In this document: positions 16,363 to 24,008 of the stretch, piece after piece
Layout: every line of letters starts with the position of its first letter
How positions within the stretch are numbered: position 1 is the stretch's first letter
Notes under the pieces: model-generated
Told to the model about the DNA's origin: nothing
Databases searched by the model: none
What the model saw: the letters and a program-made list of their open reading frames with translations, nothing else
Assembly (NCBI RefSeq): GCF_037892605.1
Contig: NZ_JBBKTU010000001.1
Coordinates: forward strand, 2,480,001-2,544,000
DNA from: Lacibacter sp. H407
Lineage (GTDB): Bacteria; Bacteroidota; Bacteroidia; Chitinophagales; Chitinophagaceae
Length of the DNA stretch: 64,000 bases
Direction of reading: 5' to 3'
Position numbers and translations under genes: made by a program

Positions 16363-16518
16363 GTAATTTTACTTAACACCACAAGTAAAACTGCTTAAAA
16401 GCCTATGCCAGTAAGGGTTTCCACCGATTTCATCAAAGAAAAAATTTTGAAGTTCAAGATTTGTTTTCTAATATTGCCTTGTCGTATCCAATACAAGAGA
16501 AACCAAATATCCAATTCT

Positions 16519-17514
16519 ATGAAAGTACGTACATTACTTCTTCCTCTGTACGCATTACTGCTTCTACTAGTCAACACTCATGATCTGAGTGCACAGGTTG
16601 GATTATCAACTGCAAATTCCCGTTTTGAAATCGGATTGAATATTGGCCCCATGAATTTCCTTGGTGATCTCGGTGGTAACCGTGGTAAAGGAGGATATGG
16701 CCCAAAAGATAATAACATACCTGTTACCAATATGATTGCCGGTATTTCTGCATCCTATTATCCATCTGAATGGTTGGGTTTTCGTTTAGCAGGCAATATT
16801 GGTCAAATGGAAGGTGATGATCGTTTAGTTAAGCAAAAGCAACCGGCCGATACCTACGAAGGCTCACGGAAATACAGAAACATTACATTCCGTTCTCCTT
16901 TATACGAAGCTTATGTTGGAGTTGAAGTTTTCCCTACAGCATTTATTGGTTTGAAAAACGGCTCAGGCTTACCACGTTTTCGTCCTTACGGTATTCTCGG
17001 TATTGGTGTGTTTAAATTCAAACCACAGGGACTTTATAAAGATCCTGCCGGTAATGAATCGTGGGTTGATCTGAAACCATTACGTCTTGAAGGACAAGGA
17101 ATGGTTGAAACAGGAATTCCTGAATACAGTCTTATTAATTACAACATTCCAATGGGTGTTGGTATTAAATACGATATCACGGAACGAATTACGTTTGCAA
17201 TTGAATTGATTCATCGTAAAACCGGAAGTGATTATATTGATGATGTGAGTAACAAGTTTATTGATCCGGCTTTGTTTGATCAGTATCTTACGCCAAGCCA
17301 GGCGGTGATGGCGAAGTACCTTTCAAATCCAAGCTCGTTTTATCCAAACTCTAATCCGGCCTATACACCGTATCGGGTTGGCAAGAAGAGAGGTAACCCG
17401 AACAGAAACGATTCTTATTTCTCCAGTACATTCAGATTAACGTGGAAGATTGGTGATGTGTACGCAGACTGGTTCCGAAATAAGAATTCGATGAAATGTC
17501 CGCAGTATTTTTAG
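16519..17514 (+). CDS. DUF6089-like outer-membrane beta-barrel protein
   Basis: A 331-residue exported protein with signal peptide MKVRTLLLPLYALLLLLVNTHDLSAQ and a mature start RFEIGLNIGPMNFLGDLGGNRG, typical of the Bacteroidota DUF6089 family of small beta-barrels. Alternating aromatic strands run to the end (DSYFSSTFRLTWKIGDVYADWF). ATG at 16519 gives the signal peptide. It is followed by a 43-residue membrane peptide and then the RNA repeat array on the same strand. Confidence 0.8.
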   Translation: MKVRTLLLPLYALLLLLVNTHDLSAQVGLSTANSRFEIGLNIGPMNFLGDLGGNRGKGGYGPKDNNIPVTNMIAGISASYYPSEWLGFRLAGNIGQMEGDDRLVKQKQPADTYEGSRKYRNITFRSPLYEAYVGVEVFPTAFIGLKNGSGLPRFRPYGILGIGVFKFKPQGLYKDPAGNESWVDLKPLRLEGQGMVETGIPEYSLINYNIPMGVGIKYDITERITFAIELIHRKTGSDYIDDVSNKFIDPALFDQYLTPSQAVMAKYLSNPSSFYPNSNPAYTPYRVGKKRGNPNRNDSYFSSTFRLTWKIGDVYADWFRNKNSMKCPQYF

Positions 17515-17547
17515 ATTATATTTTTTATCCATACCCAAACCCAAAAC

Positions 17548-17679
17548 ATGAAAACCGAAATCCCGAAAACAAGGGCCAGAGTATTGGCCAGTCCTGAAAC
17601 CACCATCTGGTTACTTCGTATTGGCTTAATAACGTTGTACGTTATCCTTTACATTTTCAAGAAAAAATTATACCTGTAA
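17548..17679 (+). CDS. 43-residue single-pass membrane peptide
   Basis: A short frame starting at ATG 17548 encodes a basic N-terminus (MKTEIPKTRARVLASPET) followed by one hydrophobic helix (IWLLRIGLITLYVILYIF) and a KKKLYL tail. The composition is that of a real small membrane protein. It lies 33 bp after the DUF6089 gene and ends 6 bp before the first RNA unit. Function unknown. Confidence 0.55.
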   Translation: MKTEIPKTRARVLASPETTIWLLRIGLITLYVILYIFKKKLYL

Positions 17680-17685
17680 ATTTAT

Positions 17686-17797
17686 AAGCAAAGTATGCAA
17701 TAAACGTTAGTCCGTACCCTTTCTCATAGTTTTCCAATCCTGTGAAAATCTAAATAAGAGAACCAGTGACCGATATTTATTTCACCATGCTTTGCTT
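17686..17797 (+). ncRNA. Structured RNA-like repeat, unit 1
   Basis: Outer stem AAGCAAAGTATG (17686-17697) with CATGCTTTGCTT (17786-17797). Second stem AATAAA with TTTATT. Conserved internal strands GTTAGTCCGTACC and CCAGTGACCGATA face each other, with GTC able to pair with GAC. The apical hairpin is specific to this unit: TTCTC/GAGAA plus GTTTTC/GAAAATC with one bulge. A T run follows the outer stem (TTTTTT from 17796). Copy-specific changes preserve pairing. The plus strand is favoured as the RNA strand because every unit except the last is followed by T residues. Confidence 0.7.
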
Positions 17798-17840
17798 TTT
17801 TCCTATTACTAATTAAATATAGTAGTAGCATTAACTCTTT

Positions 17841-17953
17841 GAACAAAGTATGCAATAAACGTTAATCCGTACCCCTTTTTCCGATATTGTTTAATATTGG
17901 TTAAAGCGAAAAAGAGAACCAACGATCGATATTTATTTCACCATGCTTTGTTC
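17841..17953 (+). ncRNA. Structured RNA-like repeat, unit 2
   Basis: Outer stem GAACAAAGTATG with CATGCTTTGTTC (17942-17953), second stem AATAAA/TTTATT, internal strands GTTAATCCGTACC and CCAACGATCGATA (ATC pairs with GAT where unit 1 has GTC/GAC). Apical helix CTTTTTC/GAAAAAG is capped by CGATATT/AATATTG. Followed by ATTTTTTTC. Confidence 0.7.
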
Positions 17954-17999
17954 ATTTTTTTCTTTACTTATTAAACCTGATAATAACATTCAACTCTTT

Positions 18000-18112
18000 G
18001 AGCAAAGTATGTAATAAACGTTAATCCGTACCCCTTTTTCCGATGTTGTCTAATATTGGTTAAAGCGAAAAAGAGAACCAACGATCGATATTTATTTCAC
18101 CATGCTTTGCTC
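18000..18112 (+). ncRNA. Structured RNA-like repeat, unit 3
   Basis: Outer stem GAGCAAAGTATG with CATGCTTTGCTC (18101-18112): the A-to-G change on the left arm is matched by T-to-C on the right arm relative to unit 2. The apical hairpin carries CGATGTT/AATATTG with G-U pairs. Followed by AATTTTTTC. Confidence 0.7.
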
Positions 18113-18157
18113 AATTTTTTCTTTACTTATCAAACTAAAAATAATATTCAACTCTTT

Positions 18158-18272
18158 GAACAAAGTATGCAATAAACGTTAATCCGTACCCCTTTTTCCG
18201 ATGTTGTCTAATATTGGTAAAAGCGAAAAAAAGAGAACCAACGATCGATATTTATTTCACCATGCTTTGTTC
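18158..18272 (+). ncRNA. Structured RNA-like repeat, unit 4
   Basis: Outer stem GAACAAAGTATG with CATGCTTTGTTC (18261-18272). The rest is nearly identical to unit 3, with two extra A residues in the right arm of the apical helix. Followed by AATTTTTTA. Confidence 0.7.
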
Positions 18273-18317
18273 AATTTTTTATTCCATGTGTAAACCAAGA
18301 CTGATCAATTATGATTT

Positions 18318-18422
18318 TGGCAACGTATGCAGTAAATGTTAGTCCGTACCTACTCAAAAGCTTTCTTGTTTGGAAGAGAGCCTGATACCAGTGACCGATA
18401 TTTATTTTACCATGCATTGCTG
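18318..18422 (+). ncRNA. Structured RNA-like repeat, unit 5 (diverged)
   Basis: Outer stem TGGCAACGTATG with CATGCATTGCTG (18411-18422), one C-A mismatch and several G-U pairs. AGTAAA/TTTATT second stem. Internal strands GTTAGTCCGTACC and CCAGTGACCGATA as in unit 1. The apical hairpin is entirely different in sequence, GCTTTCTT (18360-18367) with AAGAGAGC (18374-18381), yet still pairs. No T run follows; instead the array terminator is 30 bp downstream. Confidence 0.65.
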
Positions 18423-18452
18423 TGTTTCTCTTGGTCCGTACTCTATCCTGTT

Positions 18453-18482
18453 GCCCCCCTTGGTCGGGGGGCTATTTTTTTA
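18453..18482 (+). terminator. Strong terminator closing the RNA array
   Basis: GCCCCCC / GGGGGGC stem (18453-18459 with 18466-18472), loop TTGGTC, then TATTTTTTTA. The T tail is only on the plus strand, so it ends plus-strand transcription of the array, not uvrA. Confidence 0.9.
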
Positions 18483-18488
18483 TAGATG

Positions 18489-21323
18489 TTATAACTCTGC
18501 TTTGAGAAACTGACCGGTATAACTTTCTTTACACATTACAAGTCCTTCAGGCGTTCCTTCAAATAGAATTTGTCCGCCACCATCACCACCTTCCGGTCCA
18601 AGATCAATAATGTGATCGGCCACTTTAATTACATCCATGTTGTGTTCAATTACCAACACTGTATTTCCTCTGTCAGTTAATTTATTCAGCACATCCAACA
18701 AATGTTGAATATCCTGGAAGTGTAAACCTGTTGTAGGTTCATCGAGAATGTAAAATGTTTTACCCGTATCTTTTTTTGCAAGTTCGGTTGATAGCTTTAC
18801 ACGTTGTGCTTCACCACCACTTAGTGTAACGGCACTTTGGCCGAGTGTGATATAACCCAGCCCCACATCTTCCAGCACTTTTATTTTGCGATAGAGATAA
18901 GGAACTGGTTGAAAAAACTCAACGGCTTCTTCCACCGTCATATCTAATACATCGGCAATTGATTTTCCTTTGTATCGAATTTCTAAAGTTTCACGGTTAT
19001 AGCGCTTGCCATTACATTTTTCACAATGCACATACACATCGGGTAAAAAGTTCATTTCGATTACACGCATACCACCGCCTTCACACACATCGCAACGCCC
19101 TGTTTTTACATTGAATGAAAAACGCCCTGCATTGTAACCTCTGATCTTTGCTTCGGGTACTGCAGAGAACAATGTTCTGATCTCCGTAAAGAAACCACAG
19201 TACGTTGCAGGATTGCTTCGTGGTGTACGGCCAATCGGCGACTGATCAATTTCAATCACCTTATCAATATGTTCCAATCCTTTGATGCTTTTGTAAGGCA
19301 TTGGATTAGCTTTTGAATCGTAGCAATATTTACTGAGAATAGGGTAAAGTGTTTCGTTGATGAGTGTACTCTTACCACTTCCGCTTACACCGGTAACAAC
19401 GATGAGTTTTCCCAATGGAAATTTGGTATTTACATTTCGAAGGTTATTACCTGTTGCACCTTTCAGCTCTATAAATTTTCCATTTCCTTTTCTGCGTTCG
19501 CCGGGAACAGGAATTGATTTTTCACCATTGAGATATTTCGCAGTATCACTGTGCGAAAGCAATACATCTTTTGGTGAACCTGCTGACACAATTGTACCAC
19601 CATGTTTACCGGCTTGCGGCCCCACGTCGATCAAATGATCGGCTGCCAGCATAATATCTTTGTCGTGCTCCACTACTAACACACTATTGCCAACATCACG
19701 CAGGTTTTTTAATGCTTCGATCAAACGATGATTGTCCCGCTGATGTAAACCAATGCTTGGCTCATCTAAAATATAAGTGATGCCTTGCAGTTGCGATCCG
19801 ATCTGCGTAGCCAATCTTATACGTTGACTTTCACCACCGCTCAATGTTCGGCTGGGACGGTTTAGTGTGAGATAGGTTAAACCAACATTCAATAAAAACT
19901 GAAGTCGTTCCCTGATCTCTTTCAACACATCTTTTGCAATGGCCGCTTGTTTGTTGCTGATGCGTAGTTCCAGTCCATCAAACCAGGCGGCAAGATTATC
20001 AAGATTCAAGTCACTTAATTCAGAGATGTTCCGGTCTTCAACTTTAAACCAAAGACTTTCTTTTTTTAATCTTGCTCCGTTGCAACTGCCACATGTTTTG
20101 AGCGTCATAAATTGCGTTACCCAGTCACGCAGGCCTTCGGTACTTTGCGGCGACGCAAACCAACGCTTTAACATGGGAATAATGCCTTCGTAACTACCGG
20201 TATATTCCAATGGAAGTGTTTCGTCATTTACATCTACTTCCAAAGTGGGACTGATATTTTTATCGCCAAACAACAGCAAGTCGAGTTGCTCCTGTGGAAT
20301 ATTTTTTACAGGTACATCTAATTTGATCTTGTATTTTTTTGCAAATGCAATTACCTGTTGAAACACACTTGCATCACGCTCTGCACCTAATGGTGCAATA
20401 CCACCTTCTTTCACAGTTAATGTTTGATCAGGAAGTACAAGTTCCATGTCAATAGTGTACACATTGCCCAATCCTTTACAGGTAGGGCATGCACCATAAG
20501 GAGAGTTGAATGAAAATGCATTGGGCGATGGTTCTTCGTAACTCAGCCCGGTATCTTCACACATCAATTGTTTGGAGTAAGAAATAACGCCGTTTTTTTC
20601 TGTTTCAATCAGCATGAGGTCTTTCCCCAATTTCAACGTTTGTTGTACGCTTTGGCTAATGCGAAGTTTAAAATCATCACTTGCTTTTAACCGGTCAACC
20701 ACCACTTCAATATCATGGATCTTGTAACGGTCGAGCTGCATCTTTGGAGCAATATCTTTGATCTCCCCATCGATCCGCACTTTTACAAATCCTTTCTTTC
20801 GGATATCTTCAAACAATTCACGGTAATGTCCTTTTCGTCCTCTTACCAATGGGGCGAGTAAAGAAATTTTTTGTCCATCAAAACGATCGAGGATATTACT
20901 TACAATTTCTTCTTCGCTCCACTTCACCATTTTCTTCCCTGTGTTGTACGAATAAGCTTCGCTGGCTCTTGCATAAAGCAATCGCAAAAAATCATACACC
21001 TCAGTAATGGTTCCAACTGTTGAACGTGGATTTTTATTGGTCGTTTTCTGTTCGATTGAAATAACAGGAGAGAGGCCGGTGATCTTATCTACGTCGGGCC
21101 GCTCCATATCGCCCACAAACTGGCGGGCATAAGCGCCGAATGTTTCCATATAGCGTCGCTGTCCTTCAGCATAAATGGTATCGAATGCAAGAGATGATTT
21201 GCCGCTGCCGCTGATACCGGTAATTACTACCAGTTTGTTTTTCGGAATACTTACATCAATATTTTTCAGGTTATGTACCCGTGCCCCTGAAACTTCTATT
21301 TGATCATTCACTGTATCGCTCAT
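18489..21323 (-). CDS. uvrA: Excinuclease ABC subunit A
   Basis: A 944-residue damage sensor of nucleotide excision repair that loads UvrB. Two ABC ATPase cassettes: Walker A GISGSGKSS (Lys42) with signature LSGGESQRIRLA in the first, GVSGSGKSTL with LSGGEAQRVKLS in the second. Zinc modules are visible at CGSCNGARL and CDVCEGGGMRVIEMNF...CEKCNGKRYN. Full length. It converges with the RNA array terminator, whose T tail points the other way, so uvrA has no obvious terminator of its own there. Confidence 0.98.
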   Translation of the reverse strand: MSDTVNDQIEVSGARVHNLKNIDVSIPKNKLVVITGISGSGKSSLAFDTIYAEGQRRYMETFGAYARQFVGDMERPDVDKITGLSPVISIEQKTTNKNPRSTVGTITEVYDFLRLLYARASEAYSYNTGKKMVKWSEEEIVSNILDRFDGQKISLLAPLVRGRKGHYRELFEDIRKKGFVKVRIDGEIKDIAPKMQLDRYKIHDIEVVVDRLKASDDFKLRISQSVQQTLKLGKDLMLIETEKNGVISYSKQLMCEDTGLSYEEPSPNAFSFNSPYGACPTCKGLGNVYTIDMELVLPDQTLTVKEGGIAPLGAERDASVFQQVIAFAKKYKIKLDVPVKNIPQEQLDLLLFGDKNISPTLEVDVNDETLPLEYTGSYEGIIPMLKRWFASPQSTEGLRDWVTQFMTLKTCGSCNGARLKKESLWFKVEDRNISELSDLNLDNLAAWFDGLELRISNKQAAIAKDVLKEIRERLQFLLNVGLTYLTLNRPSRTLSGGESQRIRLATQIGSQLQGITYILDEPSIGLHQRDNHRLIEALKNLRDVGNSVLVVEHDKDIMLAADHLIDVGPQAGKHGGTIVSAGSPKDVLLSHSDTAKYLNGEKSIPVPGERRKGNGKFIELKGATGNNLRNVNTKFPLGKLIVVTGVSGSGKSTLINETLYPILSKYCYDSKANPMPYKSIKGLEHIDKVIEIDQSPIGRTPRSNPATYCGFFTEIRTLFSAVPEAKIRGYNAGRFSFNVKTGRCDVCEGGGMRVIEMNFLPDVYVHCEKCNGKRYNRETLEIRYKGKSIADVLDMTVEEAVEFFQPVPYLYRKIKVLEDVGLGYITLGQSAVTLSGGEAQRVKLSTELAKKDTGKTFYILDEPTTGLHFQDIQHLLDVLNKLTDRGNTVLVIEHNMDVIKVADHIIDLGPEGGDGGGQILFEGTPEGLVMCKESYTGQFLKAEL

Positions 21324-22120: not shown

Positions 22121-22137
22121 CAACAGTTCTTTACATC

Positions 22138-22254
22138 ACTTATCAAGAAAGGCAGAGGGTAATGGCCCAATGAAGCCTTGGCAACCTCTCTCATTCAGCA
22201 ATGCTGAATCTGGAGAAAAGGTGCCAATTCCATCCCCACAAGGGGAAGATAAGT
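22138..22254 (+). promoter_or_regulatory. SAM-I riboswitch (S box)
   Basis: P1 stem ACTTATC (22138-22144) with GATAAGT (22248-22254). The core carries the S-box hallmarks: AAGAAAGGCAGAGGG, AATGGCCC, AATGAAGCC, TTGGCAACC, then the P3 hairpin ATTCAGCAATGCTGAAT and GGTGCCAATTCC. It binds S-adenosylmethionine and is expected to switch off downstream methionine genes when SAM is plentiful, through the terminator at 22290. Position immediately before metY-metX-hom agrees with this. Confidence 0.95.
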
Positions 22255-22289
22255 CAGATAGCACGCTCAATGTTTTTATCAAAATACTG

Positions 22290-22673: not shown

Positions 22674-24008
<1,335 letters not shown>

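Follow-up and report, generated by a model that had tools for sequence, protein, structure and literature searches.

A tandem array of structured RNA units at the 3' end of a porG-like operon in Lacibacter and a probably related RNA in other Chitinophagaceae

The 64,000-nucleotide stretch of Lacibacter sp. H407 DNA analyzed here (the window) contains five RNA units with like folds that span positions 17681-18429, downstream of a porG-like gene. We tentatively propose that these units belong to a new structured-RNA family at the 3' end of the Chitinophagaceae porG-like operon that was amplified in Lacibacter, and that the units would be released and act in trans through a conserved core, with copies raising the dose. 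The porG-3' RNA is a real, apparently undescribed RNA family, and the Lacibacter array looks like an expanded form of an RNA that occupies the same spot in many relatives. To our knowledge, few structured noncoding RNAs have been described in Bacteroidota outside of Bacteroides. Here an RNA that is not in Rfam 15 lies beside a porG-like gene in 24 of the 86 genera sampled from the family, with covariation in two divergent forms and with tandem amplification.

The array and its surroundings

The window occupies positions 2480001-2544000 of contig C1 in a genome of 4.87 Mb in 4 contigs (completeness 100). The upstream partner of the array is a gene for a PorG/DUF6089-like outer-membrane protein (16405-17514, plus strand, with an uncertain ORF start), the product of which scores 23.4 bits against Pfam DUF6089, where the cut-off is 23.2, and 93.4 bits against NCBIfam T9SS_PorG, which is under the cut-off of 130. 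This gene is followed by a 43-aa small ORF (17548-17679, plus strand) with one likely membrane span, as judged by eye, and a C-terminal KKKLYL; no match to it was found in Pfam or NCBIfam. The units, each 117-127 nt long, are arranged in tandem at this one locus, and on their far side lies a convergent neighbor, a 944-aa ORF on the minus strand (18489-21323) that we take, from its sequence, to be uvrA.

Repeat finding returned the 5' arms of the units as five direct repeats with spacings of 155, 159, 158 and 160 between their starts, and the 3' arm was also found in five copies in the window. All features of the array are on the plus strand. Scored with R1, a covariance model built from the window's five units, unit 1 (17681-17804) has 132 bits and a folding z-score of -4.26; it carries the core GTCCGTACC and an outer stem of AAGCAAAGTATG and CATGCTTTGCTT that is followed by a T run. 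Units 2 (17836-17960; 151.2 bits, z -4.39), 3 (17995-18119; 152 bits, z -4.50) and 4 (18153-18279; 155.2 bits, z -4.32) have the core ATCCGTACC, and T runs are present 3' of these units as well. Unit 5 (18313-18429; 106.5 bits, z -3.11) is of a 'terminal' type and has the core GTCCGTACC. In the predicted structure, each of units 1-5 would form a long hairpin composed of an outer stem, an asymmetric loop and an A/U stem, which would expose a conserved open core, TCCGTACC. Adjoining unit 5 is an invariant tail, TCTTGGTCCGTACTCTAT (18429-18446), most of which the predicted fold leaves unpaired. An intrinsic terminator (18453-18482), made of a 7-bp G-C stem at 18453-18472 and a T run, closes the array.

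A preliminary description of this DNA had reported a five-copy tandem array of like folds, T runs after units 1-4 and a strong plus-strand terminator, all of which are borne out by the repeat spacings, by the z-scores of -3.11 to -4.50, by the T runs themselves and by the stem at 18453-18472. The description needs correcting in that a conserved 43-aa ORF ends a few bases before unit 1. Likewise the element does comprise the five units, but the invariant 18-nt tail that leads from unit 5 to the terminator belongs to it as well. Finally, uvrA faces the array from the opposite strand both here and in the 11 further Lacibacter loci compared, which agrees with the earlier views that the element is not a cis-regulator of a downstream gene and that it represents an array of small RNAs or a 3'-UTR structure.

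Fold, covariation and strand

Each unit folds into the stems of the preliminary description and does so better than 200 shuffles of its own sequence, with 0 or 1 of the shuffles being as good. Among the window's five units 97.6% of the cells are paired and three pairs are changed on both sides, and the compensations quoted in the preliminary description are present. However, this count of both-side changes is reached by 117 of 500 shuffles, so covariation from the window's five units alone is suggestive only. When 27 units from 11 genomes are aligned to the model, 96.0% of 671 cells are paired and 10 of 25 pairs are changed on both sides, in 28 cells. None of 500 shuffles attains this paired share, this number of both-side pairs or this number of both-side cells, and slid partners pair in just 35-46%. 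A plain MAFFT alignment analyzed with RNAalifold gives the same stems, with 24 pairs of which 9 have both sides changed. Covariation thus extends beyond the five copies from which the element was originally recognized. Three loci, L057 (from genome G008), L067 (G006) and L112, were left out of these Lacibacter unit alignments (A4 and A5). The most divergent members, L056 and L057, retain the outer stem with different letters, with L057 having a z-score of only -1.80.

All or nearly all units preserve a U-G pair of the outer stem, together with one G-U and one U-G pair further in. This argues for a plus-strand reading because these pairs would be C-A mismatches on the other strand. The minus-strand R1 score is also far lower (27.8 versus 155 bits), and the T runs and the terminator belong to the plus strand. 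Overall, this comparison demonstrates that the predicted plus-strand RNA structure is under selection and conserved by compensation, and the identity of the putative units as RNA is well supported.

Distribution and copy number within Lacibacter

A search of the source genome with R1 returned the five units and, on the minus strand, a weak match to unit 4 (E 0.001). Three further matches have E values of 2.3 to 6.4, and none outside the array falls below E 1. Over 99 genomes, this Infernal search, a check that the preliminary description had proposed, found the element in 12 of 14 Lacibacter genomes with best E values of 1.3e-40 to 7.1e-5. Other genera match at E 0.028 to 1, and two of the Lacibacter genomes have a few additional matches at E 0.16 to 0.53. 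Note that for any search covering over 40 genomes the filters were set more strictly, at the cost of weak matches, and that L112 is absent from the 99-genome R1 result. G006, which R1 missed, has the tail with one mismatch and, by eye, a small ORF followed by a hairpin with a z-score of -2.19. Counting this genome with the 12 found by R1 places the element in 13 of 14 Lacibacter genomes, with G005 being the sole genome of the 14 that has no match to either R1 or the tail pattern.

The number of copies is five in G000, four in G007, three in G003, G012 and G013, two in G001, G004 and G010, and one in G002, G008, G009 and G011. The 11 other Lacibacter loci compared share the window's order of features, namely a PorG/DUF6089-like gene, an ORF of 37-44 aa, one or more units, the tail, the terminator and a convergent uvrA that is 79-94% identical to that of the window. 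The contig of G004 ends within uvrA, and in G013 about 600 nt separate the terminator from uvrA; both G013 and G009, where uvrA is more distant, retain the units and the tail core. The occupation of one fixed locus in the genus by one to five copies, the invariant tail and the probably related RNA found elsewhere all go beyond the preliminary description.

The small ORF is present in 13 Lacibacter genomes at a length of 37-44 aa, with its stop codon a few bases 5' of the first unit. It is under purifying selection, as its final 30 codons, compared across 10 genomes, have a pN/pS of 0.17. Occurrence of this ORF outside of the genus was rejected, as the profile matches at E up to 0.1, seen in 11 non-Lacibacter genomes out of 107, are incomplete, contain stops or lie in longer frames, and were judged to be due to chance. 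In other genera its place is taken by a longer ORF (128-140 aa in the three that were read).

A tree of the units broadly groups the first, middle and last units of different species, with support that is partly low. Unit 5 falls on the side of the last units from other multi-copy genomes (internal support low), and units 2-4 of the window genome cluster together. This grouping indicates that some unit duplications predate the species and that units 2-4 are later copies. A further array elsewhere in the genome was rejected, as GTTARTCCGTACC with up to one mismatch occurs at 15 places, of which five are the array, compared with 14 for the reversed control. Separately, at approximately 2.153 Mb of the source genome (L094, C1:2151000-2155500, positions 1897-2295) there are three direct repeats of approximately 72 nt with T runs, which have TTTGTCCGTACCAAGAGACCAAT or a sequence near it. 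This triple repeat shares GTCCGTACC with array units 1 and 5, and no inverted repeat was found in it. With up to two mismatches allowed, the 18-mer GTCCGTACCAAGAGACCA from these repeats also has three copies in G003 and one in G007.

The invariant tail and the core

The tail consists of 18 identical columns across 12 aligned genomes, with one change in a 13th genome, G006. The stem 5' of the tail and the terminator loop 3' of it vary between the aligned Lacibacter genomes, and in a fold of 18424-18490 the last few bases of the tail pair with the 3' flank. Contained in the tail is TCCGTACTCTAT (18435-18446), the sole match in the window of the core pattern TCCGTWCYCTAT, for which 0.02 matches are expected. 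The TCCGTAC of the tail repeats the TCCGTACC of the unit loops, and TCCGTACYC has five matches in the window (units 1-4 and the tail) versus 0.27 expected. Among 13 Lacibacter loci the core TCCGTWCYCTAT is present in the tail of 12, with G006 having an A at the Y. It also occurs within units of G010, G001, G009 and G008, in each of which TCCGTACCCTAT is complete within a unit, and the units of the window hold only TCCGTACC. The null expectation for TCCGTWCYCTAT, 0.00018 per 400 nt, applies to a Y relaxed to A, C or T and to a motif picked after it had been seen. The core is altered in the terminal units of several multi-copy genomes. Overall, few stretches of either the Lacibacter or the family type are as conserved as the core, which is not part of any consensus stem and is found in the units as well as in the tail.

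Several candidate partners of the tail or core were considered. An antisense partner was rejected, as the 14-mer ATAGAGTACGGACC, searched in 14 Lacibacter genomes with up to one mismatch, was found at the tail (13 genomes) and at two other places compared with seven for the reversed control. Apart from the tail, the genus is thus regarded as offering no near match to the complementary 14-mer, so the RNA does not act through extended base pairing. Pairing of the core with rRNA would be weak, with 2, 0 and 4 of 40 shuffled cores pairing as well for Lacibacter, G017 and G042, respectively, in a comparison of these three genomes only. G017 and G042 share one 23S site, at an offset of 2741-2742 from the 16S start, and the best site of the Lacibacter tail is a different one. 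Pairing of the tail with the 3' strand of the units (UUGGUC/GACCGA) was rejected as well, since by eye it is not kept in some terminal units. The tail pattern beyond the genus was likewise dismissed, as it occurs in two of 394 family genomes (G165 and G359), with one mismatch each, without a terminator and apparently inside coding sequence.

A probably related RNA at the same junction in other Chitinophagaceae

PorG homologues (E up to 1e-20) are present in 40 of 60 family genomes, and 29 non-Lacibacter loci were read. In 15 of these TCCGTTCYCTAT lies within a hairpin. The other 14 are without the core pattern, and some of them may be PorG paralogues; L116 is cut short, L112 carries a unit of the R1 type, the hairpin of L118 was recognized only by eye and by folding, and in the rest nothing was seen. 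An alignment of 14 of the core-bearing loci (A6, from which L115 was left out with its core present and its stem ends unclear) has 96.0% of its cells paired and 9 of 25 pairs with both sides changed, with 0 of 500 shuffles attaining either value. However, sliding the structure by one column on this alignment leaves seven both-side pairs versus nine (48.9% of cells paired), so the family covariation is less clear-cut. RNAalifold analysis of A5 and A6 gives the family RNA the layout of the Lacibacter unit, which is an outer stem, a small loop that is larger on the 3' side, an A/U-rich stem and an open core.

When 107 family genomes sampled from 86 genera were searched with R2, a covariance model of the family RNA, 30 genomes from 24 genera were matched, with Lacibacter absent from the matches. 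A class sample of 149 genomes yielded a single matched genome, itself a member of the family. All 30 R2 loci are on the same strand and 3' of the same genes, with a PorG-like gene in 29 and a second ORF in 28; L158, at a contig end, is without a visible PorG-like gene. A convergent uvrA is within reach in 23 of the 30 loci. The core TCCGTTCYCTAT, of which TCCGTACTCTAT is the counterpart in the Lacibacter tail, is present in all 30, and a run of at least five Ts occurs near the 3' end of 17 (the interval scanned being approximate). Three R2 genomes (G103, G137 and G146) have a second downstream copy, so tandem copies also occur outside of Lacibacter. As a side observation, a shorter second hairpin RNA was noted downstream of the family RNA in L139, L143 and L162, and by eye in L154. 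In L139, L143 and L154 this second hairpin is preceded by a boxA-like stretch and by CATAACTAAG or TATAACTAAG.

Are the Lacibacter array and the R2 RNA one family? The best R2 score on the window array is 6.7 bits (E 0.42), which does not place the array in the R2 family by covariance model. Over 10 Lacibacter sources R2 reported only L056, at 16.7 bits (E 0.13) with the stems out of register; on the L056 intergenic stretch alone the E value is 0.0004, and L057 scores 3.7 bits. R1 in turn matches beyond the genus at L112 (genus g46), where a single unit between a PorG-like gene and uvrA scores 41.1 bits (E 2e-9) and has the stems without the TCCGTAC core. The link between the R1 and R2 types is thus drawn from position, core and layout and not from covariance-model scores, and on these features it is highly probable that the Lacibacter array and the R2 RNA share descent.

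A further copy of the core, ATCCGTWCCC, is present upstream of the RNA on the same strand in 10 of the 30 family loci (ATCCGTACCC in nine and ATCCGTTCCC in one). In the loci that were read, it follows the PorG-like gene and comes before the second ORF, where the gene that precedes the RNA begins. The idea that this leader motif is a general 5'-UTR feature was rejected, as none of 18 window matches to NTCCN[TA]ACC has an ORF of more than 47 codons within the next 70 nt.

The sequence boxA is a NusB/S10 site. A boxA-like AGTTCTTT or a relative of it precedes 13 of the 30 family RNAs, where it is 18.6 times denser than elsewhere in those loci, and AGTTCTTT occurs three times in the 16S leader of L168 (three leaders were read). 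By eye, no boxA-like stretch was seen in the Lacibacter array. The occurrence of boxA outside of rRNA is treated in PMC5725501.

Comparison with known families and described systems

None of the 4227 models of Rfam release 15 reaches its gathering cut-off in the array, and the earlier designation of a probably new RNA element therefore stands. In the array region (17500-18520) there are 11 Rfam matches at E up to 10 (E 1.4 to 9.5) with scores far below cut-off, and these look like chance. The only matches over cut-off in the window are a SAM riboswitch and a tRNA, both of which are elsewhere. The SAM riboswitch (22137-22255, plus strand, 76.7 bits with the Rfam covariance model) has 3' of it a gene at 22683 that, by eye, presumably encodes a PLP-dependent sulfhydrylase-like protein. 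Among 10 family loci no Rfam model scored over cut-off, and at the RNAs themselves there were only repeat-driven sub-threshold matches, which overlap one end in L120. Sub-threshold DUF805b (RF02914) matches were also noted close to these loci in other genera, at positions 570-602 of L108, 593-624 of L121, 3461-3493 of L123 and 2899-2930 of L125. The array resembles Rfam families generally in being a structured bacterial RNA with covariation.

A literature search covering titles and abstract openings found no account of a porG-3' RNA. Of the systems described so far, FopS/GibS of Bacteroides thetaiotaomicron comes closest; this family consists of multicopy paralogous RNAs that act on mRNA starts (PMC11697453). 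FopS RNAs are approximately 65-70 nt long and have dispersed loci, their own promoters and a 5' seed, with FopS-14 being derived from a 3'-UTR (PMC11697453). The likeness lies in a multicopy noncoding RNA of Bacteroidota with a 3'-UTR origin (FopS-14), and the use of a conserved stretch as binding site is what we propose here. In contrast, the array units are 117-127 nt long, are in tandem at one fixed locus, have the core in a hairpin and tail, and show no promoter. Tandem structured RNA motifs are also represented by STAXI and pan, which are near DNA-binding or pantothenate genes and fold as a pseudoknot and as a stem with two bulged A residues, respectively (PMC2864571). The array is like these in having a structured motif head to tail, and unlike them in its position 3' of a porG-like gene and in its fold.

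Discussion

The best reading of these results is that the porG-3' RNA is a vertically inherited family that presents a single-stranded core to a trans partner. This is supported by the constancy of its position, which is shared by 13 of the 14 Lacibacter genomes and by every one of the 30 R2 loci. As a mechanism we infer co-transcription, unit release, trans action and dosage. No TAnnTTTG box was found on either strand of 17300-18520, for which reason the array probably shares a transcript with the porG-like gene and with the small ORF; a scan for sigma-70-type promoters also found none on the plus strand. The units would then be released as stable RNAs, and their core may bind a trans partner that is either an RNA-binding protein or short mRNA target sites. 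Partners of this kind are likelier given that there is no near-perfect antisense partner and that rRNA pairing is weak. Additional copies would raise the dose, and the array ends with a further copy of the core beside the strong terminator. L. luteus and L. cauensis offer a small test case for the in-place copying of an RNA gene and for what the core binds.

An alternative is that the array acts in cis as a 3'-UTR, with hairpins that shield the mRNA of the porG-like gene and small ORF from 3' exonucleases and that, together with the terminator, block run-through into uvrA, in which case extra copies would be harmless or protective. The location directly 3' of the porG-like operon is congruent with this, as are a uvrA that is convergent where within reach, the T runs after units 1-4, the strong terminator and, among the 30 family RNAs, the 17 that have a run of at least five Ts close to the 3' end. 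However, a protective stem needs neither an invariant and mostly unpaired 18-nt tail nor a core that is exact in 30 of 30 family loci, and G013 and G009 keep both units and tail core though uvrA is further off. We consider this alternative somewhat unlikely.

The core copy upstream of the RNA in 10 of 30 family loci, a minority, suggests one shared ligand, and one factor could read the upstream copy and the RNA core alike. Extending this, the RNA would be a regulator derived from the 3' end of a porG-like operon that possibly serves type IX secretion; its core may mimic a leader motif of the operon's last gene and titrate the factor that would read this leader, with Lacibacter having a multi-site sponge of six TCCGTAC per array in the window. 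This version of events seems unlikely to us.

Another alternative, which we regard as distinctly improbable, views the units as independent tandem sRNA genes, each with its own promoter and terminator, that use short seed pairing like that of paralogous sRNA families. The T run that closes each of units 1-4, the copy number differences among species and the presence of boxA or a comparable conserved sequence 5' of 13 of the 30 family RNAs would fit such genes. Evidence to the contrary is the lack of a TAnnTTTG box on either strand of 17300-18520, or of a sigma-70-type promoter on the plus strand, together with spacers that vary between species and the lack of a long antisense site.

A small membrane peptide and an RNA could also constitute parts of a toxin-antitoxin system of type I or III, as a likely membrane peptide of 43 aa is encoded directly 5' of the RNA repeats, but this is very improbable given that the locus is fixed in the genus, that blastn found no phage or plasmid match, and that in other genera the RNA comes directly after the porG-like gene or after an ORF that is longer (128-140 aa in the three cases read). 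There is next to no likelihood that the repeats, although tandem and palindromic, function at the DNA level as a recombination or protein-binding site and not as RNA, since the U-G pairs form on one strand only, the T runs are strand-specific and the minus-strand scores are weak.

We attach equally slight credence to a 6S-like RNA that binds RNA polymerase. The 6S-Flavo RNA (RF01685) is, like the array unit, a Bacteroidota RNA of approximately 110 positions, and a long hairpin with an internal open region would suit this function. However, none of the 11 Rfam matches that 17500-18520 yields at E up to 10 is to RF01685, so that there is no covariance-model match, and no promoter-like bubble was seen. 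Tandem copies and a position 3' of an operon are also unlike 6S RNA. The one further point in favor is that 6S-Flavo scored over cut-off in 0 of 10 Lacibacter genomes, with one weak match in G011 (E 0.245). As an observation in its own right, this result raises the prospect that Lacibacter may have a divergent 6S RNA.
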